64,000 nucleotides of DNA, from NCBI RefSeq assembly GCF_003173715.1, contig NZ_CP029550.1, forward strand, positions 1,550,001 to 1,614,000, given 5' to 3'. The DNA is from Methylobacterium durans. Lineage in GTDB: Bacteria > Pseudomonadota > Alphaproteobacteria > Rhizobiales > Beijerinckiaceae. This document shows positions 19,494 through 64,000 of the stretch, in pieces (position 1 is the stretch's first letter; the number at the start of each line of letters is the position of its first letter). The notes under the pieces were generated by a model, which was given only the letters and a program-made list of their open reading frames with translations, was not told the origin of the DNA and did no database searches. The translations under genes and the position numbers were made by a program.

Positions 19494-21391
19494 ATGGCGA
19501 GCCCGACGGAACATGCGAGCTTCCTGCCGCCGGTCCTGACTTTCCTGTCGGCCGCGGTGATCGGCGTTCCGGTCTTCCGCCTCATCGGCCAGAGCGCCGT
19601 GCTCGGCTACCTCGTGGCGGGCGTGCTGATCGGCCCGTTCGGCTTCTCGCTGATCGCCGAACCCGAGACCGCCGCGAGCGTCGCCGAGATCGGCGTGGTG
19701 CTCCTCCTCTTCATCGTCGGTCTGGAGCTGCACCTGTCGCAGCTCGTCTCGATGCGGCGGGACATCTTCGGCCTCGGCACGGCGCAGCTCCTCGTCTGCG
19801 CGGCGGCGCTCGGGGGCCCGCGCTCCTGTTCGGCCTGACACCCTCGGCGGCGACGGTCGTCGGGATCGCGCTGGCGCTCTCGGCGACCGCCGTAGCGCTG
19901 CAGCTTCTCGAAGAGCGCGGAGACCTCGGCACGCCTTATGGCGGGCGCGCCTTCGCGGTGCTGCTGTTCCAGGATCTCTCCGTCGTCGCGATCCTCGCCC
20001 TGATGCCGCTCCTCGCCTCGGCCGGCGGCGGGGGTGGCGGGGATTTCTGGTTCGGCGAGGCTGTGCAATCGACCGGCAAGGCGCTCGCCGCGATCCTCGC
20101 CGTCGTTCTCGTCGGGCGCTACGGCCTCAACCCGTTCTTCCGGCTGCTCGCCGCGAGCGGCGCCCGCGAGGTGATGACCGCTGCGGCCCTCCTCGTCGTG
20201 CTCGGCACCGCGCTGCTGATGCAGGAGGTCGGCCTGTCGATGGCGATGGGCGCCTTCCTCGCCGGCATCCTGCTGGCCGAATCGAATTTCCGGCACCAGC
20301 TCGAGGCCGATATCGAGCCCTTCCGGGGCATGCTGCTCGGACTGTTCTTCATGAGCGTGGGCATGTCGATCGACGGCGGCCTCGTGAAGAGCCTGTGGCC
20401 GATCCTGTTCGGGGCGACGGCGGGGGCCATCCTGCTCAAGGTCGCCCTGGTGGTCGGCCTCTTCCGGCTGTTCGGCTCGCCGTGGCTCGACGCCGTGCGG
20501 GGGGCGGCCATCCTGGCGCCGGCCGGCGAGTTCGCCTTCGTGTTGTTGCCCGTCGCCGGCGGACTCGGGCTGATCGACGCCAACGCGACGCGCTTCACCG
20601 TGGCACTCGCCGCGCTCACCATGCTGATCGGCCCCGTGGCGGCCAAGAGCCTCGACGCGGTGCTCGCCCGCCGGCCGCGCGCGACCGAAGAGCAGGCCCT
20701 CGACGTCGTCGAGAGCACCGAGGCGCGGGTCCTGCTCATCGGATTCGGCCGCTTCGGGCAGATCCTGACTCAGGTTCTCCTGGCGGAGGGGATCAGTGTC
20801 ACCGTCATCGACAAGGACGTGGAGCAGATCCGCTCCGCCTCACGCTTCGGCTTCCGGATCTACTACGGCGACGGCACGCGCCTCGACGTGCTGCGGGCGG
20901 CGGGGATCGGCCGCGTCGAGCTGGTCTGCATCTGCATCGACGACGTCGAGGCCGCGTTGAAGATCGTCGACATCGTGCACGAGGAGTTCGAGAGCGTGCG
21001 CACCTACGTGCGGGCCTACGACCGGACCCATGCTGTCGAGCTGATGAATCGCGACGTCGATTTCCAGCTTCGCGAGACCTCCGAATCGGCCTTGGCCTTC
21101 GGCCGCGCGACGCTGGAGGCGCTGGGCCTCTCGGCGGAGGCGGCCGCACGCCGCACGGAGGACGTGCGCAAGCGCGACGTCGCCCGCCTCGTCCTGCAGC
21201 AGGCCGGGGCCCTTCCGGACGGCTCCGGGTGGCTGCGCGGCCTGCCAGGCGAGTTGAAGCCCGAGCCGCTCACCGCGCCGCAGCGCCCGGCCCGCGCGCT
21301 CAACGCCGAGACCCGCGACATCATCGGCCATGAGCGCCGCGAGGCGGCCAACCGCGCGCTGGAGACCCAGGACGGGCGGCCGGATGCCTGA
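19494..21391 (+). CDS. CPA2 cation:proton antiporter with RCK domain (KefB/KefC-like); frame broken near 19812-19816
   Basis: Potassium/proton antiporter-type membrane protein. Residues 1-105 (VLTFLSAAVIGVPVFRLIGQ, VLGYLVAGVLIGPFGFSLI) are read in one frame, which stops at 19838. The rest (ALLFGLTPSAATVVGIALAL, the second half of the membrane domain, then an RCK-N domain VLLIGFGRFGQILTQVL) lies in the -1 frame to 21391. Adding one G to the GGGGG run at 19812-19816 joins them into a 632-residue protein of normal Kef length. Either a one-base assembly deletion or a real mutation; the domains are otherwise intact. The stop overlaps the MATE gene. Confidence 0.88.
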
Positions 21392-23011: not shown

Positions 23012-23934
23012 ATGTTCAACCCGATCGACATGCTCCAGGGCCAGAGCGCCGGGATGCAGGGGCTCGCCCAGCAATTCGGCCTCACGACAGATCAGACGCG
23101 TCGTGCCATGGAGGCGCTCCTGCCCGCCTTCACGATCGGCCTGCAGCGCAACACCCCGAGCGACCCGATCGGCTTCGGCCAGCTCTTCGGGTTGCCGGGC
23201 GCCTCGGCCGGAAACCCGACCGCGCAGACGCCGGAGGTAATGCTCGGGCAGCTTTTCGGCTCGCCGATGCTCGCGCAGGCGGTCGTGCAGCAGGCGGCTG
23301 CGGCGAGCGGCGTCGGTTCTCAGGTGGTGCGCCAGATGCTGCCGCTGATGGCGGGCATGGTGGTGGCGAGCATCGTGCACATGATCCTCAACCAGAGCCC
23401 GGCGCCCCAGCAGCCGGCTCCGAAACCCGCGCCGGCAAACCCCTACGTCGCCGCCAACACGTTCTGGGCCGACATGCTGAGGGCTTTCGCCCCGCCTCAG
23501 CCGCCGCAGGCCACCCCCTCGCGCCCCAGCCGCCGAGCCCGCCGCCCGTCGAGGCACCCAGAAGCAGCCCCAAGGACCCGGCCAAGAGCCTGGACAAGAG
23601 TGCGGACAAGGGGGCGGCCGAGCAACCGTTGGATATGTTCAACAAGATGCTCCAGACCGGCGCCGAGGTTCAGACACAGAACGTGAAGGCGATGCAGGAC
23701 ATCTTCGACGCATTCTGGGCAGACCCGAAGGAGAAGGCGGTTGGGAAGGAGACGGAGCAGCACAAAGTGCCGCCTGTTCGAGCCGCCTCGCGCGCCGCGC
23801 CGAGATCCGCGGCAGCGAAGTCCGCGACGCCTGCGTCCGGCGCGCCTAATAAATCCGCTTCCCCGAAGCCCGAAGCGTCGAGGGGCAGCAGCCCCAAGCC
23901 GGCACGCAAGCCCACGGTTTCGAAGCCCCGCTGA
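23012..23934 (+). CDS. DUF937 domain protein with Pro/Ala/Lys-rich tail; frame broken near 23514-23518
   Basis: The N-terminal part (MFNPIDMLQGQSAGMQGLAQQ..., about 1-130) is a DUF937 domain: GLTTDQTRRAMEALLPAFTIGL, VMLGQLFGSP, VGSQVVRQMLPLMAGMV. The frame changes at the CCCCC run 23514-23518. Adding one C continues into a Pro/Ser-rich linker, a helix PLDMFNKMLQTGAEVQTQNV..., and a basic Lys/Ala/Ser tail ending at 23934 (307 residues when repaired). The role of DUF937 is unknown. GAGG at 22999-23002 supports ATG 23012, though an in-frame ATG at 22994 is possible. Confidence 0.75.
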
Positions 23935-28834: not shown

Positions 28835-30672
28835 ATGTTGTCGGACGTGCTGCCGAGCCAGAATATCGACTTCGCGCTGATCTTCGCGCACTCGCCCAAT
28901 CCTTACGTCCTGCTCGATCCGAACTTCGTCCTCGTCGACATGAACGAGGCGTATCTCCGCGTCACCATGCGCGACCGCGCCGCACTCGTCGGCCGGACGA
29001 TGTTCGAGGCCTTCCCGAACGACAGCGGCGCGAGCGAGCTTCGCACGTCCCTGGAACGGGTCCTGACCACCCGGGAGGTCGATCACCTGCCGCTGATCCG
29101 CTACGACATCGCGCGACCGGACGGCGGCATCGAGGAGCGCTACTGGAGCGCCACGCACACACCCCTCCTCGACGGCTCGGGGGCCATCGCCCTGATCCTT
29201 CAACACACCGTGGACGTCACGGAACTGCACCGACTGCGCAGCCACGCCCGGCTCGGTGCGCCGGGCTCCGCCGTCGCGCAGATCGAGACCGACGTGCTGC
29301 ACCGCGCGGAGGCCGTCTCCCACACCAACCGCCTCCTCGACGCCGAGCGCCTGCGCCTGCGCGCCCTGTTCGAGCAGACGCCGGGCTTCATGGCCGTCCT
29401 GACCGGGCCCGCTCACGTCTTCGAGCTGTTCAACGCGGCCTATCTCGATCTCGTCGGCCCGCGCGATCTCTTCGGCCGCAATGTCCGGGAGGCTCTGCCG
29501 GAACTCGAGGACCAGACCTTCTTCGGCCTGCTCGACGAGGTCTACGCGACCGGCCGCCCCTTCATCGGCCACGCCGTGCCGGTCCTGCTGCGCCGGGGCG
29601 CCACCGGGGAAGCGTCGCTCCTCCACCTCGATTTCATCTATCAGCCGATCACCGACGCGTCCGGCGCCGTCACCGGCATCTTCGTGCAGGGCCACGACGT
29701 CAGCGAGCGCCTGCGGGCCGAAGAGGCGCTCGCCGCGTCCCACGCGCAGATGAGCGAGATCTTGGAGAGCATCTCGGACGCGTTCTACGCGATCGATGCG
29801 CAGGATCGCTTCACCTACGTCAACCGCAAGGCCGAGACGCTCTGGGGCCGCCCGCGCGATGGGCTGATCGGGCAGATCATCTGGGACGTGTTCGACCGCT
29901 CGCCCGACAGCGAGATCCGGCGGGCGCACGTGCGTGCCGCGCTGCTCGGAAGTGCGCAACGTCTCGAGTACTTCTCGGAGGCCCTCGGGGCTGGGTCGAG
30001 ACCAGCATCTACCCGGGCCCTGCCGGTCTCTCGGTCTTCTTCCGCGACATCACCGAACGGCACCGCAACGAGGAGCGGCGCCAGCTGATGGTCAACGAGC
30101 TGAATCACCGGGTGAAGAACTCGCTCGCCGTCGTTCAGGGCATTGCCAGCCAGACTTTACGCACCGCCCGCGACCTCGATCAGGCCAGGGGCGACCTGAC
30201 CGCCCGCCTTGTGGCGCTCGCCCGCGCCCACGATCTCCTGACCAGCGAGAGCTGGGAGGGAGCCGACCTGTCCGAGGTGGTGCACGCCACACTCGAGGGT
30301 GGCCTCGGCGTGCCGGGGCGGCAGGTCGAAGTCGTGGGCCCGGCCCTGCGCCTCACGCCGAACGCCGCACTCTCCCTCGCGCTCGCTCTGCACGAGCTCG
30401 GCACCAACGCCATCAAGTACGGCGCCCTCTCGGTGGAGCAGGGCTGCGTCACGGTCTCGTGGACGATCGAGCCCGCAGGCGGCGCCGCATCGGCGGACCG
30501 CCGCCTCGACCTGTCCTGGACGGAGCGCGGCGGTCCGCCCGTGACCGCACCGACCCGCCGCGGCTTCGGCTCGCGTCTCCTCGAACGCGGTCTCGCGGCC
30601 GAGCTGCACGGTCGCGTCGATCTCAGTTTCGGGGCCGACGGTGTCGCCTGCCGAATCGAGGCGCTGGTGTGA
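28835..30672 (+). CDS. PAS-domain HWE-family sensor histidine kinase; frame broken near 29987-29990
   Basis: Soluble sensor kinase of 612 residues when repaired. It holds three PAS-type domains (about 8-130, ALIFAHSPNPYVLLDPNFVLVDMN; 175-300, RALFEQTPGFMAVL; 305-410, SDAFYAIDAQDRFTYVN) and an HWE kinase core, ELNHRVKNSLAVVQGIASQT, with phospho-His in NHRVKN and ATPase motifs HELGTNAIKYGALS and GFGSRLLE. The frame breaks at GGGG 29987-29990; one extra G joins LEYFSEALG to GWVETSIYPG. No membrane helix and no adjacent receiver gene, so its partner is encoded elsewhere. HWE kinases often sense light, oxygen or general stress in alphaproteobacteria. Confidence 0.88.
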
Positions 30673-50892: not shown

Positions 50893-51110
50893 TTCTCGCC
50901 CCGCGCAGGGCCCGCGTGTGCGGGACGGCGCTTGTGTGCGCGGCGTCCGCCCCTATCATCCCCGCGACCCGCCGTCCGGACGCGGCGTCGCAGTGACAGG
51001 GGCGCCCCCATCGAACCCTCACGACGGCATCGACGCGGCGGACCCGGTCCGCGCTCGTCGGCCGCCCGCCGGCGCGGGCGGGCGGGCGCACACGACACCG
51101 GGATCGCGCC

Positions 51111-51803
51111 ATGCTCGGCCTGACGCCCGAGGAATGGGTCGCCCTCACCCTCAGCCTCAAGGTGGCGAGCGTGGCGACGCTGGCGAGCCTCGTTCCCGGC
51201 CTCGCGGTCGCCTGGCTCCTCGCCCGTCGCGACTTCCACGGCCGCACCCTCCTCGACGGGCTCGTCCACCTGCCCCTGATCCTGCCGCCCGTGGTGACGG
51301 GCTACCTGCTGCTTCTCGCCTTCGGACGGAAGGGCCCGGCGGGGGCGTTCCTCGCCGAGTTCGGCATCGTCTTCGCCTTCCGCTGGACCGGGGCGGCGCT
51401 CGCCTGCGCGGTGATGGGCTTCCCCCTGATGGTGCGGGCGATGCGCCTGTCGCTCGAGGCCGTCGACCGGCGCCTGGAGCAGGCGGCCTCGACGCTGGGC
51501 GCCAACCCGCTCGCCGTCTTCCTCACCGTGACCCTGCCGCTCAGCCTGCCGGGCATCCTGGCCGGCGCGGTGCTGGCCTTCGCCAAGGCGATGGGCGAGT
51601 TCGGCGCCACCATCACCTTCGTCTCCAACATTCCGGGTGAGACCCAGACCCTGCCCTCCGCGATCTACACCCTGACCCAGGTGCCGGGGGGCGAGGGCGG
51701 CGCGCTGCGGCTGACCCTCGTCTCGATCGCCGTCTCGATGGGCGCGCTCCTCGCGTCCGAGTGGCTCGCCCGGCGGGTCTCCCGCCGGCTCGGGAGCGCC
51801 TGA
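51111..51803 (+). CDS. modB: Molybdate ABC transporter permease
   Basis: 230-residue inner-membrane protein with five to six helices. ModB features: LSLKVASVATLASLVPGLAVAWLLARRDF, LPLILPPVVTGYLLL, EQAASTLGANPLAVFLTVTLPLSLPGILAG (the EAA loop), and FAKAMGEFGATITFVSNIPGETQTL. It carries molybdate (or tungstate) into the cytoplasm. The modC gene begins five bases after the stop. No modA-like binding protein gene is present upstream, which is unusual. Confidence 0.95.
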   Translation: MLGLTPEEWVALTLSLKVASVATLASLVPGLAVAWLLARRDFHGRTLLDGLVHLPLILPPVVTGYLLLLAFGRKGPAGAFLAEFGIVFAFRWTGAALACAVMGFPLMVRAMRLSLEAVDRRLEQAASTLGANPLAVFLTVTLPLSLPGILAGAVLAFAKAMGEFGATITFVSNIPGETQTLPSAIYTLTQVPGGEGGALRLTLVSIAVSMGALLASEWLARRVSRRLGSA

Positions 51804-51807
51804 TCCG

Positions 51808-52914
51808 ATGACGCTCGCGGTCGACGTGGCGCTGAAGCGCGGCGCCTTCTCGCTCGAGGCCGCCTTCGCGAGCGGGCCGGGGCTCACCGCCCTGTTCGGC
51901 CGCTCGGGCTCCGGCAAGAGCACCCTGATCCACCTGATCGCGGGCCTCGCCCGGCCGGACCGGGGCCACATCGCGGTCGGCGGCGAGACGCTCCTCGACA
52001 CGGAGACACGGTTCAGCGTGCCGGTGCACCGCCGCCGGATCGCCTGCGTGTTCCAGGAGGCGCGGCTGCTGCCGCATCTCAGCGTGCGGGGCAATCTCAG
52101 CTACGGGCGCTTCTTCGCCGGGCGGCGGGCGGGCTTGGGCGCGGACCTGCCGTCCGTGGTGGAGATGCTCGGCATCGGTCACCTGCTCGACCGGCGCCCG
52201 GCCGGCCTCTCGGGCGGGGAAACGCAGCGGGTCGCGATCGGTCGGGCGCTGCTGGCCAAGCCCCGCCTGCTCCTGATGGACGAGCCGCTCGCCGCCCTCG
52301 ACGAGGCCCGCAAGGCCGAGATCCTGCCCTATATCGAGCGGCTGCGGGACGAGGCCGGCATCCCGATCGTCTACGTCAGCCACGCGGTGGCCGAGGTGGC
52401 GCGGCTCGCCAACACCGTGGTGGTGCTGGAGGAGGGGCGCGTCGCCGCCGCCGGGCCCGCCGACACGATCCTGCGCCGGGCCGAACTCCTACCCGCCCAC
52501 GAGGCGGAGGCCGGCGCCCTCCTCGACATGGTGGTGGAGGACCACGACCCGGCGGGTGGCATCACGCGGCTCACGGGCGACGCCGGGCACCTCGTGGTGC
52601 CGCATCTCGGGCGGCCGCTCGGCAGCCCGGTGCGGGTGCGCCTGCCCGCCCGGGACGTGCTCCTGGCGACGCAGAGGCCGGTGGGGCTCAGTGCCCGCAA
52701 CATGCTGCCCGGCCGCATCGCCGCGTTGACGCCGATGGGGGACGCCGTGATGGTCGAGATCGCGTGCGGCGGCGTCGCGATCGCCGCGCACCTGACCCGC
52801 GCCTCGGCGCAGGACCTCGGGCTGGTCCCGGGTCTTGCCGTCTACGCCATCGTCAAGAGCGTCGCCCTCGACCCGGCCGGCGTCGGCACGGGCCGGCGCC
52901 CGATCGAGATCTGA
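51808..52914 (+). CDS. modC: Molybdate ABC transporter ATP-binding protein
   Basis: 368-residue ATPase of the molybdate importer: Walker A GRSGSGKST (31-39), Q-loop CVFQEARLLPHLSV, signature LSGGETQRVAIGRAL, Walker B RLLLMDEPLAALD and H-loop YVSHAVAEV. The C-terminal Mop/TOBE domain (about 295-365, LSARNMLPGRIAALTPMG...) binds molybdate and regulates transport. Directly follows modB. No modE regulator is nearby. Confidence 0.95.
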   Translation: MTLAVDVALKRGAFSLEAAFASGPGLTALFGRSGSGKSTLIHLIAGLARPDRGHIAVGGETLLDTETRFSVPVHRRRIACVFQEARLLPHLSVRGNLSYGRFFAGRRAGLGADLPSVVEMLGIGHLLDRRPAGLSGGETQRVAIGRALLAKPRLLLMDEPLAALDEARKAEILPYIERLRDEAGIPIVYVSHAVAEVARLANTVVVLEEGRVAAAGPADTILRRAELLPAHEAEAGALLDMVVEDHDPAGGITRLTGDAGHLVVPHLGRPLGSPVRVRLPARDVLLATQRPVGLSARNMLPGRIAALTPMGDAVMVEIACGGVAIAAHLTRASAQDLGLVPGLAVYAIVKSVALDPAGVGTGRRPIEI

Positions 52915-52941
52915 CGCCGTCGCGCGCCGATCGAGGACCGG

Positions 52942-53874
52942 TCACGCCGCCCCGTCGACGAAGGCGCGCATCAGGAGATGCGCGATCGCCATGGGCGGCG
53001 GCACGCTCAAGCCCTCGGGATGCGCGCCCGCGATCATCTGCGCCACCGCCGCGCGCGGGAACCAGCGGGCGTCCGCGAGCTCCGTCGGGTCGATCGTGAT
53101 CGCGTCGTCGAGCGCCTCCCCGACGCAGCCGAGCATCAGCGAGGCCGGGAAGGGCCAGGGCTGGGAGGCGAGGTAGCGCACCGCGCCGACCCGGATGCCG
53201 GCCTCCTCCCGCGTCTCGCGCCGCACCGCGTCCTCCACGGTCTCGCCGGGCTCCAGGAAGCCGGCGAGGCAGGAATACATCCCCTCCTTGAAGCGGGGCG
53301 CGCGGCCGAGCAGGCAGGTGTCGCCCCGGCGCACCAGCATGATGACCACCGGGTCGGTGCGCGGGAAATGGTGCGTGCCGCAGGCCGGGCAATCGCGCCG
53401 GAAGCCGCCCGCCGCGGGCAGGCTCGGCGAGCCGCAATGCGCGCAGAAGCCGTTGCGGGCGTGCCAGGCGAGGAGCGACTTCGCCGTGGCGAGGAGGCCG
53501 AGTTCGTCCGCCGCCACGGCACCCTCGGCGGCGAGGCTGCGCAGGTCGAGGCTGTGGTGCGCGGGCCCGCCCGCGAGGTCGTCGGCGGCCGCCGGCTCGA
53601 TCGCGGCGGCGAAGACCGGACGCCCGTCGAGGCGCCCCCCGTCGAGGCGTCCGAGGAAGACCGGCACGGCGAGCGCGGGCACCCGCGCCGCGACGTCCGG
53701 ATTCAGCAATGCGCTGGCGGGCTCGCGCGTGAGCACCACTCGGTCGCCGGCGAACAGCACCCAGGCGGCGTCCGGAGCGTCGAGGGGCGGCACCGCGCCC
53801 TCCCCGGCCTCGGCCGAGTGGCGGCGGAGCCGGCTCCGGGCGTAGCCGAGCCGGGCGAGGGAGGCGTCCAGCAC
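52942..53874 (-). CDS. nudC: NAD+ pyrophosphatase / NADH-decapping Nudix hydrolase
   Basis: 310-residue Nudix enzyme that splits NAD(H) to NMN(H) and AMP and removes NAD caps from RNA. The zinc site is C..C (GFCAHCGSP) and C..C (CPACGTHHFPRTDPVVI). The Nudix box is GFLEPGETVEDAVRRETREE, followed by the NudC-specific SQPWPFPASLM. Length is about 50 residues longer than E. coli NudC because of an N-terminal domain found in many proteobacteria. Confidence 0.95.
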   Translation of the reverse strand: MLDASLARLGYARSRLRRHSAEAGEGAVPPLDAPDAAWVLFAGDRVVLTREPASALLNPDVAARVPALAVPVFLGRLDGGRLDGRPVFAAAIEPAAADDLAGGPAHHSLDLRSLAAEGAVAADELGLLATAKSLLAWHARNGFCAHCGSPSLPAAGGFRRDCPACGTHHFPRTDPVVIMLVRRGDTCLLGRAPRFKEGMYSCLAGFLEPGETVEDAVRRETREEAGIRVGAVRYLASQPWPFPASLMLGCVGEALDDAITIDPTELADARWFPRAAVAQMIAGAHPEGLSVPPPMAIAHLLMRAFVDGAA

Positions 53875-53880
53875 GGGCGG

Positions 53881-54297
53881 TCAGGCCGCGGCGAAGAGCG
53901 CGGCGGCGCGCTCGACGAGCTGGGCGCGGGCGTGCGGCGGGTAGGGCTTTCGCTCTCCCTGCCCCCAGACCGGGCCGGGCCAAGCGGGATCCGAGCGGAA
54001 GCGGCCGACGACGTGGACGTGCAGCTGCGCCACCACGTTGCCGAGGGCCGCGACGTTGACCTTGTCCGGACGCGACAGGGCCTGCATCACCCCCATCGCG
54101 AGGCGGATCTCCTCCCAGAGGAGGCTGGAATCGTCCGCGCCGAGATCGGTGATCTCGCTCGCGCCCTCCCGGCGCGGCACGAGGATGAGCCAGGGAAAGC
54201 GCGCGTCGTCCATCAGGAGGACGCTCGACAGGGCGAGGTCGCCGACCGGCACGGTGTCGGCGGCAAGCCGCGGGTCGAGGGTGAATTCCGGGTGCAT
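53881..54297 (-). CDS. HIT-family protein
   Basis: 138-residue nucleotide-binding protein. The histidine-triad motif reads QLHVHVVGRF (91-100), where the last His of the canonical H-x-H-x-H-xx is replaced, as in several bacterial HIT members. The N-terminal part (SVLLMDDARFPWLILVPRR) fits the HIT fold. It likely hydrolyses dinucleotides or AMP conjugates. ATG 54297; six bases before nudC, so probably co-transcribed with it. Confidence 0.9.
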   Translation of the reverse strand: MHPEFTLDPRLAADTVPVGDLALSSVLLMDDARFPWLILVPRREGASEITDLGADDSSLLWEEIRLAMGVMQALSRPDKVNVAALGNVVAQLHVHVVGRFRSDPAWPGPVWGQGERKPYPPHARAQLVERAAALFAAA

Positions 54298-54335
54298 CGC
54301 GCCAGCATCTAGGGCAGCGCCGCCCGATCCGCGAG

Positions 54336-54460
54336 GCCCACCTCTCCCGTCCGGGAGAGGTCGAGTCCGCAGGATGCGGACCGGGTGAGGGATACAGGTC
54401 CTTCCGGAAAGGGCGCACCCCTCGCCCCGACCCCCTCCCGAACGGGAGAGGGGGCGCGGC
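54336..54460. repeat. Intergenic palindromic repeat element (REP-like)
   Basis: Within a gene-free stretch (54298-54554) lie three stem-loops: CCTCTCCCG/CGGGAGAGG (54341-54349, 54352-54360), TCCGCA/TGCGGA (54366-54371, 54375-54380), and CCCCCTCCCG with CGGGAGAGGGGG (54431-54454). The first and last are near copies, giving an outer inverted-repeat feel. The wording (CACCTCTCCC, GGGTGAGGG, CCTCGCCCCGACCCC) resembles dispersed palindromic units common in rhizobial and methylobacterial genomes. I see no transposase. Confidence 0.65.
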
Positions 54461-54554
54461 GCGTCTCCCGCGCCCGCACGTGAGCCTCGGTGCAGACGAT
54501 GGTGCAGACGATGCCTGAATGGAGAGGTGGCCGCCGGGTCCGCGCGCGACGGCC

Positions 54555-55160
54555 TCACAGGCTCGGCACGGCGCCGCGGCGGCCGACCGCGATGATCTCG
54601 GCGACGGGCTTGCCCGCCTCGTCCGGGGCGACGAAGGCCGTCACCTCGGCGCCCGCGGTCAGGAGCGCCTTCTCGCCCCGCGTGATCTGCGTCGCCTTCG
54701 TGTCGGCCGCGACCGTCACGGTCTTGGTGCCGCCCTCGTAATTCAGCACGACCCGGCGCGGATCGTCGCCCGAGAGATCCCCGATCCAGCCGCCGGTCAG
54801 CGCCGCGTCGGGCATCGTGTCCCAGGACCGGTGGCCCGAAAACCAGCCGCGCAGGTCGGGTGCGTGGATCGTCACGGCCTCGGCCCGGCGCGCCGTCCCG
54901 CATTCGGGCAGCGACAGGGCGCTGACGTAGCTCTCCGGCTTGATGTCGCGCACCGTGGCCGGCGCCGCCGTGAGCAGCCGCGTCGTGTCGTTCATCCGGA
55001 TCGCGGCCGTTCCGCCGGCCCGCAGGCGCAGGGTGAGGACGTCCCCCTCCCGCGTCTCCACCGTGCCGCGGTAGCGCGTGCCGAAATCCTCGTCCGGATC
55101 GGCGAGCGCGGGCGCGGCCGACAGGCCGAGGAGGACGAGGGCGGAGAGAATCGATCGCAT
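54555..55160 (-). CDS. Secreted hypothetical protein
   Basis: 201 residues with a signal peptide (MRSILSALVLLGLSAAPALA, cleavage near ALA/DPD). The mature part holds beta-rich stretches with a periodic pattern (GTVETREGDVLTLRLRAGG, TLTL-like, AATVRDIKPESYVSAL, GTKTVTVAADTKATQI, AGAEVTAFVAPDEAGKPVAEI), suggesting an OB-like or DUF5666-like fold. I do not assign a function. ATG 55160 has GGAGAGAA upstream within 15 bases. Confidence 0.7.
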   Translation of the reverse strand: MRSILSALVLLGLSAAPALADPDEDFGTRYRGTVETREGDVLTLRLRAGGTAAIRMNDTTRLLTAAPATVRDIKPESYVSALSLPECGTARRAEAVTIHAPDLRGWFSGHRSWDTMPDAALTGGWIGDLSGDDPRRVVLNYEGGTKTVTVAADTKATQITRGEKALLTAGAEVTAFVAPDEAGKPVAEIIAVGRRGAVPSL

Positions 55161-55311
55161 GCGGGTCGGGCCAAGCCTCCGGCCCGGCCAGACTAGCTTG
55201 GCCGGGATCACCGGCAACGGGGACCCGCCGCCTCGGTTCCGGACCGTACGCTCACGGTTTCGCGCGGGACGGGCCCGTTCTGCTCCCTACAGAGCTTCGC
55301 GCGGGACGCGC

Positions 55312-56177
55312 TCAGTGCGCCAGCAGCACCGGCAGGTCGGCGTGGGCGAGGACGTGGCTCGTCGGGCCGCCGAAGATCATCTGGCGCAGGCGGCTCTGGG
55401 TGTAGGCCCCTTGATCAGGAGGTCGGCCCCGAACTCCTTCGCCTCGGCCAGGAAGGTCTCGCCCGGCGTGCGGCGCCCGGCCGGCAGGGCCCGGTGCGCC
55501 GCGGCGATGCCCTCGCAGGCGAGCGACTGCGCGAGGTCCTCCGCGCTCGGCCCCGGCACGGTCCCGCCCTCGACGCTGAGCACGAGGATGCGCTTGGCCT
55601 GCAGCAGGAAGGGCATCGCGAAGGCGACGGCCCGGGCCGTCTCCGTCGAGCCGTTCCAGGCAATCAGCACCGCCTCGCCGAGGCTCGTCGGCGGGACCGG
55701 AGGTGCTAGCAGGATCGGCCGGCCGCCCTCGAACAGAGCCGTCTCGAAGGTCGCCATCCGGGGCGAGGCATCCTCCGAGCCCGGCCGCCCGACCACCGTC
55801 GCCGAGAACAGGCGCGCGTACTGGCCGAGGAAGGCGTCGCCCGCCGGCACGTCCTGCCGCCAGCGGTAGCGCGGCCCGCAGCCCGCCGCGACGTTCTCGG
55901 GAATGCAGAGGCCGTCACGGGGGTGGCGCGGGATCGCCGAGGCTTCCATCGCCGCGATGAAATGCTCGCCCGCCTCCTCGGCCTCGGCGCGGTCGGCCTC
56001 CTCGTCGCGCAGCCACGTCATGCCCCCGACCATGTCGACGGGGACGTATTCCGCGAGCGCCGGGCGCAGCGACACGCCCTCGATCAGGCTGCCGAAGCGG
56101 CGTGCGGCGAGGGTCGCGGTGGCGAACACGGAGGGCAGCGTGTCGTGCAGGGCGACGGGTACGAGAAGCGTCTTCAT
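55312..56177 (-). CDS. Universal stress protein (UspA family), frame broken near 55407-55410
   Basis: Two UspA-like halves in one protein of 288 residues when repaired. The N-terminal half starts MKTLLVPVALHDTLPSVFAT. The second half includes EAVLIAWNGSTETARAVAFAMPFL, and GADLLIKG near the end. The original frame stops soon after GADLLIKG; adding one base at CCCC 55407-55410 gives the conserved ending AYTQSRLRQMIFGG...HVLAHADLPVL, so the gene ends at 55312. Functions in general stress; nucleotide binding probable. GGAG lies nine bases before ATG 56177. Confidence 0.88.
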
Positions 56178-56552
56178 CACCGTGAACTCCATACCGGCGC
56201 GGGCGGGGTGACGCGGCCGCCCGGGAGTTCGGCCGCATCGCGCGCTCGCGCGCCGATGCTAGAGCGCTTCCTTCCGGCGTGGAACTCATCGATCTCGCGG
56301 ACGCACACGCATTTTCGCAGGGGCGAGACGGCCCGCGCCGACATCTTGCTCAGATCACGGCCAAGCTCAGCGTCGCGAAGGGAAGACAACAGCCAAGTCT
56401 TGGCTGACCGCCTGTGAAAATGGGCCCAGCTTATCTAGGAACAAAGCCCGGAAGTCCCCGTTGACGGCGTGAAGTGCAAGGCGGCAGCCACGATTGGTCA
56501 TCGACCGCCGGGGCCGGCTGCGCACGTCGAATATCGCAGATCGAGGTCCCCT
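56178..56552. other. Intergenic region, no gene seen
   Basis: 375 bases between the divergent UspA and DUF4142 genes. It contains a TTGACG (56461-56466) on the plus strand that might be part of a promoter for DUF4142, but no matching -10 box was found. Several frames are open but none shows a start or protein pattern. Confidence 0.35.
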
Positions 56553-57254
56553 ATGTTCAAGAAGTACGTTGCCATGTCCGCCCTGATGACGGCTCTCGCC
56601 ACCCCGGCGATGGCCCAGGGCGCGGGCGATTTCCGCCTCCAGGCCATGCAGGCCAACGCCTTCGAGATCCAGTCGAGCCAGATCGCGCTGTCGAAGTCGC
56701 GCAACCCGGCTGTCCGTAACTTCGCGCAGCACGCGATCAGAGATCACCGCGCCGCCAACGTGGCGCTGGCGGGCGGCGAGCGGAACTACGTCGCGGGCGG
56801 TGGCCCGGTCGGCGGCCTGATCGAGGCGCCGCTGGCGGTAGCCGGCGGTGCGGTCGGCGCGGCCACGGGTGCAGCGGCCGGCGCGGTCGGCGGCACGCTG
56901 GCAGGCGGCCCGGTCGGCGGCGTCGAGGGGATCGGCGCGGGCGCGGCGCGGGGCGCGGCGGTCGGCAGCCGCGTGGCGACGGGCGACGTCGACGGCACGG
57001 CCGGCACCACGATCGTGCCGCCGAACCCGGAGCAGCAGGCGATGCTCGCGGAACTCTCCGCGACCCCGCCCGGCCCGCGCTTCGACCGCCTCTACGGCCA
57101 GCAGCAGGTCATGGCGCACCAGCAGTCGCTCGCGCTGACGCAGGCCTACGCCTCGTCGGGGCCGAGCCCGGCGCTGCGGAACTACGCCCAGCAGGCCCTG
57201 CCGGTGCTCCAGGAGCATTACGCGATGGCGCAGCGCCTGCCCGGCGCCCGCTGA
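56553..57254 (+). CDS. DUF4142 secreted protein with Gly/Ala-rich insert
   Basis: 233 residues: signal peptide (MFKKYVAMSALMTALATPAMAQ), first DUF4142 half (FRLQAMQANAFEIQSSQIAL, NPAVRNFAQHAIRDHRAAN), then an unusual Gly/Ala-rich segment (about 85-140, AVAGGAVGAATGAAAGAVGG...), then the second half (RLYGQQQVMAHQQSLALTQ, NYAQQALPVLQEHYAMAQRL). DUF4142 is a ferritin-like four-helix domain. The Gly/Ala insert looks like a glycine-zipper that could insert in a membrane. GAGG precedes ATG 56553. Function unknown. Confidence 0.85.
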   Translation: MFKKYVAMSALMTALATPAMAQGAGDFRLQAMQANAFEIQSSQIALSKSRNPAVRNFAQHAIRDHRAANVALAGGERNYVAGGGPVGGLIEAPLAVAGGAVGAATGAAAGAVGGTLAGGPVGGVEGIGAGAARGAAVGSRVATGDVDGTAGTTIVPPNPEQQAMLAELSATPPGPRFDRLYGQQQVMAHQQSLALTQAYASSGPSPALRNYAQQALPVLQEHYAMAQRLPGAR

Positions 57255-57271
57255 TCCGCGGTGATGGATAG

Positions 57272-57329
57272 CCGGTGGCGGGTTCCCGCCACCGGATCGG
57301 GGGGAACGGCGGGCGTGAGCCCGCCGTTC
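57272..57329. terminator. Twin hairpins between converging genes
   Basis: First stem: CCGGTGGCGGG (57272-57282), TT loop, complement 57285-57295. Second stem: GAACGGCGGGC (57304-57314), GTGA tetraloop, complement 57319-57329. Both stems are 11 bp and perfect. They lie just past DUF4142 and about 20 bases past the carbonic anhydrase end on the other strand. Confidence 0.75.
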
Positions 57330-57347
57330 TCGCATGCGGCGGCCCGT

Positions 57348-58011
57348 TCAGGTGCAGCTGATCAGGGACGAGGGGCGCAGGCTCTGGCCGGCCCGGTCGG
57401 TGATCGGGGCGAAATCGCCGGTCTCCGGGTCACGCACGAGGAGTTCGCCGGTCGCGACGCCGAAATGCGCGCCGTGGAGCTGAAGCGTCCCGGCCTCGAC
57501 GCGCTCGCGCACGAAGGGAAGGTGCCGAGATTCTCGATGCTCTGGCTCACCATCGCGTGCTCCATGCGGGTGAGGTAGTCGGGTGCGGAGGAATCGCCCG
57601 CCTTCTCCTCGGCCGGCTTCACCAGCGAGACCCACTTGCCGATGAAGTTGCCGACGAGAGGGGTTTGGCCTTGTTGGCGAACGCCTTGATGCCGCCGCAG
57701 GTGGCGTGGCCGAGCACGACGATGTGCTTCACCTCCAGCGCCTGCACCGCGAACTCGATCGCCGCCGAGGTGCCGTGATACTCGCCGCCGGTCTCGCAGG
57801 GCGGCACGATGTTGGCGACGTTGCGGATCACGAACAACTCGCCCGGGCCGACGTCGAAGATCACCTCCGGCGACACCCGGCTGTCGCAGCAGCCGATGAC
57901 GAGCACGTCGGGGTCCTGCGTCTTGGCGAGCTGGGCATAGCGCCGGCTCTCGTTCGGGAAACGGTTTCCGAGGAAGGAGCGGTAGCCCTCGGTCAGGGAT
58001 TCAGGGAACAT
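57348..58011 (-). CDS. Beta-class carbonic anhydrase; two frame breaks (near 57657-57663 and 57516-57518)
   Basis: Zinc enzyme interconverting CO2 and bicarbonate. The first frame (MFPESLTEGYR..., 130 residues) holds the zinc ligands Cys42 and Asp44 (CCDSRVSPEV), His102 and Cys105 (LGHATCGGIKA), and ELFVIRNVANIVPP. Adding a base near 57660 continues with VGNFIGKWVSLVKPAEEKAG, and another at GGG 57516-57518 with FVRERVEAGTLQLHGAHFGVATGEL and the end at 57348. The repaired protein is 221 residues, normal for the family. No transcriptional partner seen. Confidence 0.9.
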
Positions 58012-58086
58012 CGTGCATCTCTCCGGCCGTCGCGGCGTATCAGAATGGCGGCGATGTAACTGGCATGTCTCGACAGCGTTGCCGAC

Positions 58087-58610
58087 TCAAGCATTACGCC
58101 ACGACAACGTGACCGGAACGGCCGGGATATCCCCGGCGAGGATGCGCCGGACGAGGGCCGCCAGGCCCGCCGGCTCGATGCGCTCTCCGCTCGCCTCCAG
58201 TTCGGCGAGGCTCCACCAGCGGGTGCCGAGGACCGGGTTGTCCTCGGTCTCGGCGAGCCGGCCCGTGTCGATCTCGTCCGAGGGCAGGCGCACCAGGAAG
58301 TAGCGCTCGCGGGCGTCGCGGGGCTTGCGGAACAGGCGGAAAGGGCCGTCGCAGGTGGCGACGAGCGGGCCGATCGGCGCGTCCGCGACGCCGATCTCCT
58401 CGCCGAGCTCGCGCCGGCAGGCCTGCTCGTGGGTCTCGCCAGGCTCCAGGCCGCCCCCGGCATGAACCAGAAGGCGCGCGCGTCGGGCCGCTCGGAATCG
58501 ATCGGCCGCACCGCCTCGTAGGCGATGAGGAGCAGGCGGTCGGCCGGGTCGAAGACCAGGGCGCGGGCGATGTGGCGCAGAGGCAGCGCGTCGGCTTTCG
58601 TGTCGCTCAT
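58087..58610 (-). CDS. NUDIX hydrolase; frame broken near 58454-58458
   Basis: 174-residue (repaired) Nudix protein. The N-terminal part is MSDTKADALPLRHIARALVFDPADRLLLIAYEAV. One base added at CCCCC 58454-58458 restores FWFMPGGGLEPGETHEQACRR, followed by ELGEEIGV, which completes the Nudix box. The C-terminus RWWSLAELEASGERIEP is typical. Likely hydrolyses a nucleoside diphosphate derivative. ATG overlaps the DUF429 stop (ATGA), so translation is coupled. Confidence 0.87.
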
Positions 58611-59386
58611 GCCCTCCGCATAGCAGCTTCGCCCGCTCCCTGTCGCGACGACGGGTCCCCGGGCGCCCAGATCACGACCGGTAGCCCGTAGGCGTCGCGC
58701 CCCGGCGGGTCGGGCAGCGGGACCGCGCGGCCCTCGAGGATGTCGCGGGCGACGACGAGGGCCGCCATCGCGTCGAGGTGGTCGTCGGCGCCGACCCCGC
58801 GGGGCCGCTCCGAGCGGACGAGGGCGGCGGCAGGCCGGCCGCCAGCAGGAGGGCGCGGCGCGCGTCGAGCCCCTGCCGCCGCGCCGGCCCTTCTTGGCGC
58901 CGGCGAGCGGCTGCCCGCGATTGAGGGTGCGGAAGGCCACTTCCGGGTGGACCTCGTGCAGGCGCGCGGCGAGATCCGGCCGCGACCGCAGCAGCCCGTC
59001 CGCCTCCCGCACGTAGCGCAGGATGTTCCAGCACTGGATCGAGGGCGCGAAGGGCGGCTCGCTCGCCGCGCGGGACAGCGCCTTGGCCTCCTCGTAGGTC
59101 TCCGCGTAGACGGCGGAGCGCGGCGGCACCGGGAAGACGCTGGATCGTCCGCCCGGCCCGAGCAGGGCCCGCGCCGCCCGGTCGGCGACGCGCCCGCCCC
59201 CGCGACCCGGTCCGGCAGGCCGATCGGCACGTCGATGCCGGCCGCGAGCGGCACCTCCGGCCCGTCGAGGAGCGCGGCGATGCTGGGAAACAGCGCGACG
59301 CGCCAGGATTCCGGATCGTCGAGATCGAGCAAGGCGCCGGCCCAGGCGCCCCGGCAGCCGTCGAGGCCCGCGATCCAGCGCGCCAT
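58607..59386 (-). CDS. DUF429 domain protein; three frame breaks (near 59197-59201, 58870-58873, 58822-58824)
   Basis: A 260-residue protein when all three breaks are repaired; the three one-base losses restore the original frame. Start MARWIAGLDGCRGAWAGALLD with AAGIDVPIGLPDRV, then (next frame) SSVFPVPPRSAVYAETYEEAKAL, PSIQCWNILRYVREADGLL, HEVHPEVAFRTLNRGQPL, and finally DDHLDAMAALVVARDILEG. This is the DUF429 pattern (RNase H-like fold, predicted nuclease). Role unknown. It overlaps the NUDIX start by four bases. Confidence 0.82.
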   Translation of the reverse strand: MARWIAGLDGCRGAWAGALLDLDDPESWRVALFPSIAALLDGPEVPLAAGIDVPIGLPDRVAGAGASPTGRRGPCSGRADDPASSRCRRAPPSTRRPTRRPRRCPARRASRPSRPRSSAGTSCATCGRRTGCCGRGRISPRACTRSTRKWPSAPSIAGSRSPAPRRAGAAAGARRAPRPPAGGRPAAALVRSERPRGVGADDHLDAMAALVVARDILEGRAVPLPDPPGRDAYGLPVVIWAPGDPSSRQGAGEAAMRRA

Positions 59387-59480
59387 CCTCGCCCCTCCCC
59401 GCCCGATCCTTGAATCGGGTCCCGCGGGACGGTATCCGCGAACCGGCCGGCAGGATACCCGGCGAGGAGGAGGCGCCCCC

Positions 59481-60367
59481 ATGACCGAGATCCGCCCCCG
59501 TCGCAGCGTCCTGTCCCTGCCGGGATCGAGCCCGCGCATGCTGGAGAAGGCGGCCGGCCTTCCCGCCGACGTCGTGATGCTCGACCTCGAGGACGCGGTG
59601 GCGCCGGAGGCCCGGGACGAGGCCCGCGCCCGCGTGGCCGAGGCGGTCGCCGACCGCCGCTTCGGGCGGCGCGAGGTGGTGGTGCGGGTCAACGGGCTCG
59701 AGACGCCCTGGGGCGAAGCGGACCTCGCCGCGATCGCGGCTGCCGGCCCGGACGCCATCGTGGTGCCGAAGGTCCACCGCCCGGACGATCTCGTCGCGGT
59801 GGGCTCGCGCCTGCGCCGGTTCGGGGCGCCCGGCCCCTTGCGGGTCTGGGCGATGATCGAGAGCCCGCTCGCCATCCTGGAGATCGGCGCGATCGCCAGC
59901 GCCGCCCGCGACGTCGACACCCGGCTCGCCTGCCTCGTGCTCGGGCCCAACGACCTCGCCCGGGCGAGCCGCGTGCGACTCGGCGTGCCGGGCCGGCCGG
60001 CGCTGATGCCCTGGCTGATGAGCGCGGTCGCCGCGGCGCGCGCCTACGAGATCGACATCATCGACGGCATCTACAACGCGTTCCGGGACGAGGCCGGCTT
60101 CCGGGCCGAGTGCGAGCAGGGCCGCGATTGCGGCTTCGACGGCAAGATGCTGATTCATCCGAGCCAGATCGAGGCGGCGAACGCCGTGTTCGGGCCGGGC
60201 GAGGCCGAGATCGGGCAAGCGCGCGCGATCCTCGACGCCTTCGCCGCGCCGGAGAACCGGGGGCGCGGCGCGATCCCCTTCGAGGGCGGATGATCGAGCG
60301 CCTGCACGCGGACGAGGCCCGCCGCACCCTCGCGATGGCCGAGGCCATCGACGCGCGCCGGGCATGA
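59481..60367 (+). CDS. HpcH/HpaI-family CoA-ester lyase (CitE/malyl-CoA lyase-like); frame broken near 60284-60286
   Basis: TIM-barrel lyase acting on a CoA ester such as malyl-CoA or citryl/methylmalyl-CoA. Visible: RRSVLSLPGSSPRMLEKAAGLPADVVMLDLEDAV, VVVRVNGLETPWG, VPKVHRPDDL, AMIESPLAILE, LGPNDLAR and FDGKMLIHPSQI. The frame stops at 60293 after FEGG. One added G at 60284-60286 gives the family's usual ending GRMIERLHADEARRTLAMAEAI (295 residues) and overlaps the dut start by ATGA. In methylotrophs malyl-CoA lyase belongs to the serine cycle, but a genuine mcl has a different neighbourhood, so this could be a thioesterase or a CitE-like lyase. Confidence 0.87.
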
Positions 60368-60849
60368 GCGGCGCCCCCCTGGAGGTCGCGATCCGCCTCC
60401 TCGACAAGCGGCTCCCGGATTGGGGATTTCCGCGCTGGGGCTCGCCCGCGGCGGCGGGCCTCGATCTCCACGCCTGCCTCGACGTCCCCCTCGTCCTGGA
60501 GCCCCAGGCCGCGCCTGCCCTGATCCCGGCCGGGATCGTGGTCGCGATCCGCGATCCGGACTGGTGCGGGCTGGTGCTGCCCCGCTCCGGCTTCGGCCAC
60601 CGGGAGGGGCTGATCCTCGGCAACGGCACAGGGGTCATCGACGCGGATTACGAGGGGCCGCTCCTCGTCTCGGCCTGGAACCGCAACCCGGCCCCGGGCC
60701 TGGGTATCCGGATCGAGCCCGGCGACCGGATCGCGCAGCTCGTCTTCACGCGCGTCACGCGCCCGACCCTCGTCATCGTGCCGGACGGCGAGGCGGCGGC
60801 GGGCTCCGCCCGCGGCAGCGGCGGGTTCGGATCGAGCGGCCGGCGCTGA
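60364..60849 (+). CDS. dut: dUTP diphosphatase
   Basis: 161-residue trimeric dUTPase, hydrolysing dUTP to dUMP to keep uracil out of DNA. The five motifs are AAGLDLHA, LPRSGF, NGTGVIDADYEG, GDRIAQLVF and the C-terminal RGSGGFGSSG, in this order. ATG 60364 overlaps the preceding lyase stop. Confidence 0.95.
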   Translation: MSGAPLEVAIRLLDKRLPDWGFPRWGSPAAAGLDLHACLDVPLVLEPQAAPALIPAGIVVAIRDPDWCGLVLPRSGFGHREGLILGNGTGVIDADYEGPLLVSAWNRNPAPGLGIRIEPGDRIAQLVFTRVTRPTLVIVPDGEAAAGSARGSGGFGSSGRR

Positions 60850-60895
60850 CGCGGATGGGCGCATTCCGCGGTCGAACGGCGTACAGGTGAGCCCC

Positions 60896-61366
60896 ATGCG
60901 CTCCGATCCGCCGCCCCCAGCGCCGGCCGGCCCCGCGGCCGCCCGCCTCCGCCTCGCCACGGCGGCCGTGATCGACATCGCCCTCCACGCGCGGCCGCAG
61001 CCGGTCAACGCCCGCGTCCTCTCCGCCCGCCACGGCCTGCCGCCGCGCCACCTGGAGACGGTGCTGCAGGCCCTCGTCCGGCACGGCCTGCTCAAGGGCG
61101 TGCGCGGCCCGCGCGGAGGCTACGAACTTGCCCGCGAGCGGCGCCGGATCAGCGTCGGCGACATCGCCCGCGCCGCGGGCAGCCTCGAGGAGGAGGACGG
61201 GGCGACGTCGAGCCCCATGGGGGCGATCGTCGAGCCGACGATCCGTGCGGCCCAGGCGGCCTTCCTCTCGGCCCTCGATGCCGTGACGGTGGAGGATCTC
61301 TGCCGTCAGGCCGAGGCGCTCGACGCGGTGCGGCCGGAGCGCCAGGAACCTCATTTCGATATCTGA
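60896..61366 (+). CDS. Rrf2-family transcriptional regulator
   Basis: 156-residue winged-helix regulator. The Rrf2 pattern is LRLATAAVIDIALH, then the recognition region VNARVLSARHGLPPRHLETVLQALVRHGLLKGVRGPRGGYELAR, and SVGDIARAAGSLEEED. It lacks the Cys triad that binds an iron-sulfur cluster in IscR and NsrR (only one Cys, in EDLCRQAE), so it should sense something else. AGGTGAG precedes ATG 60896. Stands between dut and the HD-GYP gene on the same strand. Confidence 0.88.
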   Translation: MRSDPPPPAPAGPAAARLRLATAAVIDIALHARPQPVNARVLSARHGLPPRHLETVLQALVRHGLLKGVRGPRGGYELARERRRISVGDIARAAGSLEEEDGATSSPMGAIVEPTIRAAQAAFLSALDAVTVEDLCRQAEALDAVRPERQEPHFDI

Positions 61367-61587
61367 CGCGGCCTCCGGATGATCGGGGCGAAGCCGACGC
61401 TCTCACGCCTTCGCGGCGTCGAGGCGACGGGCACCGGCAGGATTTTGTGCACGCAGCCTAAGCCGTCCGCGCGATCGGTCGATTTTTGTCCGGTTCCGAT
61501 TCGGACCGTTCGGGTTGCGGGCCTCCCGCCTTCAAGCTCGCTTAACGGGCAAGCCGGCATGATCCTGCCGACGGATCGGATGGCGGC

Positions 61588-62694
61588 ATGGGCATGGAGT
61601 TTCAGCGGTCCCGGCAGCACCCGGGCAGATCGGAGGCGGACGAGCGAGGCTCGGCCGCGGACGGTTCCCCCTACGTGCCGATCCTGGCCGCGGCGATGCC
61701 GCTCCAGCTCGTCCTCGCCCTGCGGCCGCTCGGCTGCGAGACGCCGGTCCTGGCGGCAAGCCAGCTTCCCGAACTCGCCCTCGGCGCGGTCGACCTCCTC
61801 ATCGTCGACGGGGACGGGCTCGACGGCCTCGCGCTGGTCCGGGCGTTCCGCGCGCTGCCGGTGCATGCCGCCACGCCGGTTCTGCTCGTCGGGTCCGGCG
61901 AGGCGCGCATGATCCGTCGCGCGGCGATCGAATCCGGGGCGACCGACGTGCTGGTGCGCCCCGTCGACCCGCTCGATCTCCAGATCCGCGCCCGGACGCT
62001 GATCGACCTCTCCCTCGCCCGGAGGGATGCGGCGCGCACCGCGAGCCTGATGGACCGGCACGTGGCCGGGATCCGGGCCGAATCGGAATGGCGCGAGCGG
62101 GAGATCATCCAGCGCCTGATGCTCGCCGCCGAGTTCCGCGACGATCAGGCCGGCGACCACCTGACCCGCGTCGCGGGCTGCGCCATCGCGATCGCCGAGG
62201 GCCTCGGCCTGTCGGAGGACGGAGCGAACGACATCGCGCTCGCCTCCACGATGCACGATATCGGAAAGATCGGCATTCCCGACAGTATCCTCCTGAAGAA
62301 CGGCCCGCTCACGGACGCGGAACGCGAGGAGATGAAGCAGCACGCCGAGCGCGGCTACCGGATGCTGCACGATTCGCCCTCGCGCCTGCTGCAGCTCGCC
62401 TCCGAGATCGCCCTCACCCACCACGAGCGCTGGGACGGCACCGGCTATCCGCGCGGCCTCTCCGGTACCGACATCCCCCTCAGCGGACGTATCATCGCGG
62501 TGGCCGATGTCTTCGACGCTCTGATCTCGGAGCGGGTCTACAAGGCGGCGTGGCCCCCGGAGAAGGCGCGGGCCTACCTCGTGGAGCATCGGGGCAGCCA
62601 TTTCGATCCGGCCTGCGTCGACGCGTTCCTGTCCCGCTGGGACGACATCTGCGGGTTGATGCGCGACCGCCCGGCGGGGGCAGGCGCGACCTGA
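61588..62694 (+). CDS. HD-GYP domain protein with degenerate receiver (probable cyclic-di-GMP phosphodiesterase)
   Basis: 368 residues: receiver-like N-terminus (about 28-140) with a possible phosphoacceptor in LLIVDGDGLDG (Asp74) but no acidic pair at the start (YVPILAAAMPLQ), and Arg instead of the conserved Lys (VLVRPVDP). The C-terminal half is a complete HD-GYP domain with HDIGKIGIPD (223-232), HHERWDGTGYPRG (278-290) and VADVFDALISERVYK. It should degrade cyclic di-GMP, lowering biofilm formation. The receiver probably cannot be phosphorylated in the usual way. Confidence 0.92.
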   Translation: MGMEFQRSRQHPGRSEADERGSAADGSPYVPILAAAMPLQLVLALRPLGCETPVLAASQLPELALGAVDLLIVDGDGLDGLALVRAFRALPVHAATPVLLVGSGEARMIRRAAIESGATDVLVRPVDPLDLQIRARTLIDLSLARRDAARTASLMDRHVAGIRAESEWREREIIQRLMLAAEFRDDQAGDHLTRVAGCAIAIAEGLGLSEDGANDIALASTMHDIGKIGIPDSILLKNGPLTDAEREEMKQHAERGYRMLHDSPSRLLQLASEIALTHHERWDGTGYPRGLSGTDIPLSGRIIAVADVFDALISERVYKAAWPPEKARAYLVEHRGSHFDPACVDAFLSRWDDICGLMRDRPAGAGAT

Positions 62695-62695
62695 G

Positions 62696-64000
62696 CTATT
62701 CCGCCGCCTGCTCGGCCGGCGCCCCGCGCAGGCCGAACCGCTCGATGCAATCCTGCAGGCGGATCGCCGAATTGATCAGCGCCATGTGGGTGAAGCCCTG
62801 GGGCGTGTTGCCCCGCTGCTCACCGCTCGCGGCATCGATCTCCTCGGCGAACAGCCCGACATCGTTGCCGCGCGCGATCAGGCGCTCGAACGCGGCCTTC
62901 GCCTCCGCCGTGCGGCCCGCCAGCGCGAGGCAGCTGACGCGCCAGAAGGCGCACGGGGTGAAGGTGGCCTCCCGCCCCTCCAGCCCGTCCGGCATCCGGT
63001 AGCGGTAGATCAGGTCGCCCGCGCCGAGCTCGCGCTCGATCGCCGCGAGCGTCGAGACCATGCGCGGATCGTCGGGCTCGATCGCCCCGAACAGCACGAC
63101 GCGCAGGACCGCCGCGTCGAGGTCGTCGGTCTCGTAGGTGCCGACATAGGCCTGCTTCTGCGCGTTCCAGGCCCGCGCGAGGTAATCCGCCCGGATCTCA
63201 GCGGCCGCCGCCTCCCAGGCGGCGATCTTCTCCGCCGGGACGCCCTGGATGTTGCGCCCGATCCGCGCCGCGTTGTCGAGGGCGACCCAGATCATCGCCT
63301 TGGTGTGCGTCTGGTGGCGCCGCTCCGTGCGCAACTCCCAGATGCCGTGGTCCGGCGCGTCGCGGCAGGCGAGTGCCCGGGCCGTAAGGTTGTCGAGCAC
63401 CTCGGGAAGGCGATCGTTGACCTTCTCGGGCGGGTCGTAATCGACCGCCTCCAGGAAGCCGCACAGGGCCCGCATCAGCTCGCCGTAGATGTCGTGCTGG
63501 TCTTGGTTCGCAGCGGCGTTCCCGATCAGGACCGGACCGACGTTGCGCCACCCGGAGAGGTGATGCAGCGCCTCCTCCGGCGGCGGCTCGCCGGCGATCC
63601 CGTAGAGAAGGCGCGTGTCGCGCCCGTAGCTGCCGTCGGCCTCGCGCAGGAAGCGCAGGAACTCGGCGGCCTCGCGCACGTAGCCGAGCATCACGAAGGC
63701 GGTGACGGTGAAGCTCGCGTCCCGCATCCAGGTGAAACGGTAATCGTAGTTGCGGTTGCCCGGAATCGCCTCGGGAAGCCCCGCGGTGGCGGCCGCCACG
63801 ATGGCGCCGCTCGGGGCGTAGGTCAGGAGCTTGAGGCAGAGCGCCGAGCGCAGCACGGCCTCCCGGTACGGCCCCCGTAGGTGCAGCGCTCGCTCCAGCG
63901 CCGCCAGTACGCGACGGTCCGGTCGAGGCAGTCCCGCGCACCCGCGAGATCCTCGATCGCGGGCGCCTTCCCGTCCTCGCCGTGGGTGAGGATGAGGTAG
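62696..64000 (-). CDS. GH15-family glycoside hydrolase (glucoamylase/trehalase-like), partial; frame broken near 63870-63876
   Basis: The C-terminal ~430 residues of a GH15 enzyme; the N-terminus lies past the right edge. In one frame the edge segment reads LILTHGEDGKAPAIEDLAGARD ... TVAYWRRWSERCTYGG. Adding one base near 63870-63876 gives GPYREAVLRSALCLKLLTYAPSGAIVAAAT and the barrel AIPGNRNYDYRFTWMRDASFT, with the catalytic region GIWELRTERRHQTHTKAMIWVALDNAARI. These are the marks of the bacterial trehalase/glucoamylase-like GH15 group. It probably hydrolyses an alpha-glucoside such as trehalose. It ends two bases past the HD-GYP gene, converging. Confidence 0.88.
   Translation of the reverse strand, partial: LPHPHPRRGREGARDRGSRGCAGLPRPDRRVLAALERALHLRGPYREAVLRSALCLKLLTYAPSGAIVAAATAGLPEAIPGNRNYDYRFTWMRDASFTVTAFVMLGYVREAAEFLRFLREADGSYGRDTRLLYGIAGEPPPEEALHHLSGWRNVGPVLIGNAAANQDQHDIYGELMRALCGFLEAVDYDPPEKVNDRLPEVLDNLTARALACRDAPDHGIWELRTERRHQTHTKAMIWVALDNAARIGRNIQGVPAEKIAAWEAAAAEIRADYLARAWNAQKQAYVGTYETDDLDAAVLRVVLFGAIEPDDPRMVSTLAAIERELGAGDLIYRYRMPDGLEGREATFTPCAFWRVSCLALAGRTAEAKAAFERLIARGNDVGLFAEEIDAASGEQRGNTPQGFTHMALINSAIRLQDCIERFGLRGAPAEQAAE

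Follow-up and report, generated by a model that had tools for sequence, protein, structure and literature searches.

Mismatch-repair hypermutators carry a broken repair gene and show indels that favour runs of a single base. Small indels are also a familiar product of sequencing itself: long-read errors, as a passage of the Kastor paper describes them, are chiefly short indels at homopolymers, and the deletions of a nanopore assembly are placed there most often after runs of four to five bases, with genes fragmented (PMC12007338). At the level of whole records, one example of problematic sequencing or assembly given in part of a further source is “many frameshifted proteins” (PMC10228379). The 64,000 nucleotides of Methylobacterium durans analysed here, which we call the window, correspond to bases 1,550,001–1,614,000 of the chromosome and contain genes broken by single missing bases. 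Working from the assembled sequence, we conclude, with a probability of roughly 96%, that these breaks arose as errors in the assembly consensus.

The chromosome is represented by a single contig of 6,788,375 bases with a completeness score of 99.93%. M. oxalidis NBRC 107715 was the best named relative for one window gene (88% protein identity), and M. oxalidis is the nearest relative found, at about 86% identity across almost the whole window; in the part of the literature consulted it is grouped with M. soli, M. planium, M. segetis and M. durans (PMC9364378). Its contig aligns to the window at 84.8–90.5% nucleotide identity and falls into two oppositely oriented blocks, positions 1–30,673 being inverted and 30,745–64,000 direct, with a synteny break at about 30,700. 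A scan of the window against Rfam returned no family at or above threshold. The literature searched yielded nothing on this assembly, by which we make no claim of absence from print.

The initial annotation had placed fourteen one-base frameshifts in eleven genes, every one of them to be repaired by adding a base. Alignment to M. oxalidis bears out both the number and the direction, the window being one base short at 14 of 14 sites and one base long at none. Other Methylobacterium relatives, where cleanly aligned, also show the window one base short; a single relative is shown at sites 19820, 23515 and 29988 of the multi-relative alignment, and at the DUF429 sites the alignments of the more distant relatives contain mixed gaps. 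Frameshifts common to relatives, which had been named in advance as evidence against the reading, were looked for, and none was seen in the relatives that aligned. The affected genes, in window coordinates, are the following.

19494..21388, + strand: cation/proton antiporter with TrkA-N domain; one break at about 19815–19824, from alignment and protein frames
23012..23849, + strand: DUF937 gene; break at about 23515, with the DUF937 domain preceding it
28835..30672, + strand: PAS / HWE-type histidine kinase; break at about 29987, from alignment and protein frames
43155..45367, − strand: dsbD-like gene; break at about 44556, with DsbD_TM and thioredoxin-like domains downstream of it
45426..47278, − strand: aminopeptidase P; break at about 46711, from alignment and protein frames
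55312..56192, − strand: universal stress protein; break at about 55408, from alignment to relatives
57348..58011, − strand: carbonic anhydrase; two breaks, at about 57516 and 57651, giving three successive frames
58087..58610, − strand: NUDIX gene; break at about 58456, with NUDIX 36–120 of 134 in the second piece
58631..59386, − strand: DUF429 gene; breaks at about 58823, 58888 and 59202, with DUF429 1–53 of 214 in the first piece
59481..60366, + strand: CoA-ester lyase (HpcH/HpaI, CitE-like); break at about 60287, near the 3' end
62696..64000, − strand: glycoside hydrolase family 15 (GH15); break at about 63875, with the 5' end of the gene outside the window

The Pfam scan of these genes covered 20 pieces, two of which were cut out of frame, so that their lack of a match is uninformative. 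In the antiporter, Na_H_Exchanger 2–90 lies in one frame and 98–372 in the next. The PAS domains of the kinase are in one frame and HWE_HK in the next, and aminopeptidase P is divided in the same way, with Creatinase_N in one frame and Creatinase_N_2, Peptidase_M24 and M24_C in the next. The first piece of the carbonic anhydrase matches Pro_CA 1–74 of 156, the HpcH_HpaI domain of the CoA-ester lyase precedes the break, and the long piece of the GH15 gene matches Glyco_hydro_15. For the stress protein, the short piece gave a Usp match below the family cut-off and the long piece gave no Pfam match.

Matching of proteins makes a change of frame visible in the antiporter, DUF937, HWE kinase, dsbD-like, aminopeptidase P, NUDIX and GH15 genes, and two such changes in the carbonic anhydrase. 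Because shadow frames also match in GC-rich DNA, stop-to-stop protein matching can mislead, and it was used solely alongside nucleotide alignment; in the stress protein, DUF429 and CoA-ester lyase genes the shadow frames prevailed, and it is nucleotide alignment that supports the sites. In the dsbD-like gene, both nucleotide and protein alignments put the break at about 44556, some 30 bases from the position originally given (44585–44587), while the coding model described below, unlike the alignments, places it at 44588. That model merges the DUF429 breaks at 58823 and 58888 into one insertion-type joint at 58843 and treats the CoA-ester lyase break at 60287, a site supported by alignment, as an overlapping restart. 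Least certain of the fourteen is the DUF937 site (23515), which lies in a diverged linker. At 23766, in the alanine/proline-rich part of the same gene, a second and weak deletion-type joint was observed (gain 8.4), and the M. oxalidis alignment contains several gaps in its vicinity.

Counted without filtering, the non-triplet gaps between the window and M. oxalidis are nearly balanced, at 106 deletions and 101 insertions, because most of them lie outside genes or in clusters. When the count is limited to isolated coding gaps, defined as those that fall within coding sequence with no other such gap closer than 100 bases, 10 deletions and no insertions are left over the 143,647 bases of this genome that align. 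Nine of these 10 deletions coincide with sites of the initial annotation; this filter removes the other 5 of the 14, namely those in DUF937, aminopeptidase P and the CoA-ester lyase and the DUF429 sites at 58823 and 58888.

Samples amounting to 24% of the chromosome were analysed with a coding model based on codon usage, in which one-base joints between frames are allowed. Starting from stretches with high protein identity to M. oxalidis, the model was fitted to this genome and trained anew for each relative; an earlier version, which converged on a shadow reading frame (GC3 0.71), was dropped. Three samples (L144, L216 and L242) contain 7,500 bases of N each. At a gain of at least 10, 94 deletion-type and 18 insertion-type joints were called in 1,641,500 bases of this genome, masked bases excluded, or 85 and 17 when the window is left out; five relatives, over 1,061,690 bases, gave 6 deletion-type and 8 insertion-type joints. 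At a gain of 15 the counts are 71 deletion-type and 16 insertion-type joints here versus 4 and 5 in the relatives, insertion-type joints being about twice as dense in this genome (16 in 1.64 Mb versus 5 in 1.06 Mb). The one-base changes are thus mostly, not wholly, one-sided. A deletion call lies within 700 bases of just 5 of the 16 insertion-type joints, so not all of them are paired deletions.

The recall of the model was estimated from simulated single deletions: in M. oxalidis it recovered 67% of 202 at gain 10, and in this genome, at gain 15, it recovered 209 of 478. Extrapolated from 24% of the chromosome, less the background and corrected for recall, the joints would correspond very roughly to 500–600 losses in coding sequence genome-wide. 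Joints are present in samples along the chromosome. The 17 samples that start from 3.1 to less than 4.6 Mb contain 6 of the deletion type, 4 in sample L224, while 88 fall in the remaining 64 samples, of which the window is one; depth, GC or chance may account for the difference.

The initial annotation had also located the frameshifts at or beside short G/C runs, and the genome-wide joints share this context: a run of at least 4 is found at 65% of the 71 strong joints versus 12% of 209 simulated ones, the latter being the random deletions recovered by the model, with a median placement error of 2 bases. Per 1000 coding G/C runs, the number of joints increases from 0.56 at length 3 to 3.6 at length 4 and 14.2 at length 5, followed by 14.6 at length 6 (3 joints) and 118 at length 7 (2 joints), so that about 1.4% of length-5 runs carry a strong joint. 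In 1,183 unmasked 1-kb bins that are mainly coding, joint density is 2.1 per 100 kb in the lowest fifth of GC and 15.7 in the highest, an approximately sevenfold rise, with recall of simulated deletions fairly flat across GC (0.53–0.72). The crowding noted at the outset, with 11 of the 14 sites right of 43 kb, fits this increase with local GC.

43001..64000, no strand: GC-rich part of the window, with 73.5% GC and 8.5 G/C runs of at least 4 per kb

Left of 43 kb, the window has 70.5% GC and 6.4 such runs per kb. Compression of all runs was considered and rejected, the run-length spectra resembling those of two relatives and lying slightly lower at lengths 3 and 7–8; this similarity suggests that loss is sporadic rather than general to every run. 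The samples were also inspected for a replication-linked gradient, and their GC skew is too flat for placing an origin. A search for a modification motif by k-mer enrichment returned top words that contain G/C runs.

Of the mismatches to M. oxalidis, third codon positions hold 66% in the broken genes (9 groups) and 72% in the intact genes (49 groups), at overall mismatch rates of 12.6% and 11.6%, respectively; the groups are those joined by the model, in which NUDIX and DUF429 are merged and the CoA-ester lyase is counted as intact. The third-position bias is weakest in the DUF937 gene. Coding constraint in the broken genes is at most slightly relaxed, and the mixed lesions and relaxed constraint that characterize pseudogenes were not found in them.

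Breaks of the same kind reach genes on which the cell depends. A profile of rpoC matches at one place in the genome, positions 1–681 being read in one frame and those from 682 in a different one, and an E. coli RpoC query without its C-terminal end matches in two frames as well, residues 2–701 and 710–1217 meeting at about 6,603,739 (sample L274). At about 2,916,480 (L217), murD is split into model positions 2–362 and 365–441; no second full match was found in the genome, all other matches falling below the cut-off. The mutL gene is likewise split across two frames, at about 6385029 (L275). A cell with truncated rpoC and murD should be inviable. The splitting of these two single-copy genes, which would be expected to be lethal, therefore points to an artefact rather than to biology.

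Most of the essential genes examined are intact. Both dnaE and mutS are whole, and no internal stop interrupts the open frames that hold the matches to GTP_EFTU, PF00133 and MMR_HSR1. In a core-gene test, 31 of 157 E. coli core proteins were matched in the sample (36.4 kb, some of them probably paralogues), and in this small set one of the 31, murD, has a joint at a gain of at least 8, versus about 2 expected. Outside the window there are 61 strong joints, for 30 of which one piece each was scanned; a family match at 1e-10 was obtained for 22 pieces, which include PutA, glucose-6-phosphate dehydrogenase, formyl-CoA transferase, a CheA-like protein and a GTA baseplate protein. No classic essential gene occurs among these 22.

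The reading offered by the initial annotation, base-calling loss in G/C runs, is supported by the direction of the changes, their run context, the constraint kept by the broken genes, the recurrence of the breaks, and the state of rpoC and murD. On this reading, short runs of G or C, most of them 3–5 bases long as assembled, lost one base sporadically, not at every run, and more commonly in the most GC-rich stretches; the loss would have taken place in sequencing or consensus calling rather than in the cell. Because the fault recurs across the sampled chromosome and splits indispensable genes, we regard it as an artefact, and the organism itself most likely carries these genes in intact form. 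Several observations run against an artefact: insertion-type joints are also raised, most essential genes are intact, the third-position share is 66% versus 72%, and mutL is among the broken genes.

The broken mutL raises the alternative of a mismatch-repair-deficient hypermutator, in which mutL is truly defective and G/C-run losses are so recent that the affected genes have not yet decayed. The split of mutL in the assembly, the preference of joints for longer G/C runs and the barely relaxed coding constraint are all consistent with such a strain. However, single-copy rpoC and murD are split too, against the sparing of essential genes expected of a hypermutator, mutS is intact, losses far outnumber gains, and hundreds of fresh losses would require long relaxed growth. 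We consider this history very improbable; mutL may have been struck by the same assembly error, which is the simpler reading. Even harder to credit is decay, with the eleven genes as pseudogenes of this lineage. The assembled sequence does show them as broken, and no obvious essential gene appears to be among them, but the change is of a single kind, such joints extend across the whole sample, the share of mismatches at third positions differs little (66% in broken genes and 72% in intact ones), and rpoC and murD are broken as well.

The breaks might instead be real in the DNA and bypassed at G/C runs by slippage or recoding during expression, which would agree with the location of the joints at runs and with genes that are still under coding constraint. 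Runs of 3–5 bases are short for slippage, however, and the affected genes are unrelated, just 1.4% or so of length-5 G/C runs carry a strong joint, and the aligned relatives read through without any shortfall; we give this explanation next to no weight. Similarly far-fetched is a living Methylobacterium that lacks mutL, bears hundreds of genuine one-base losses at short G/C runs, and obtains enough full-length RpoC and MurD from slippage during expression.

With consensus errors as the preferred reading, neither the gene calls of this assembly nor counts of pseudogenes nor traits inferred from it are reliable, and the completeness score of 99.93% does not expose the fault. The biological interest of the breaks is low, and their value is that of a warning about this assembly record. 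Other GC-rich single-contig assemblies without reads could be screened by codon-model joints together with control relatives and a simulated-deletion baseline, with essential genes as the decisive check.

Compared with hypermutator strains, the likeness lies in a mutL gene that is broken as assembled and in indels that favour runs, whereas here single-copy essential genes are broken and losses greatly exceed gains. With assemblies flagged for “many frameshifted proteins”, as that example stands in the part of the source cited (PMC10228379), this record has in common many one-base frameshifts that are blamed on sequencing or assembly. The nanopore assembly of the Kastor paper, as far as the cited passage describes it (PMC12007338), resembles it in its deletions at short homopolymers and its fragmented genes; in contrast, the runs here are of G or C and the rate rises with local GC, and the likeness is drawn from the sequence, not from the platform.
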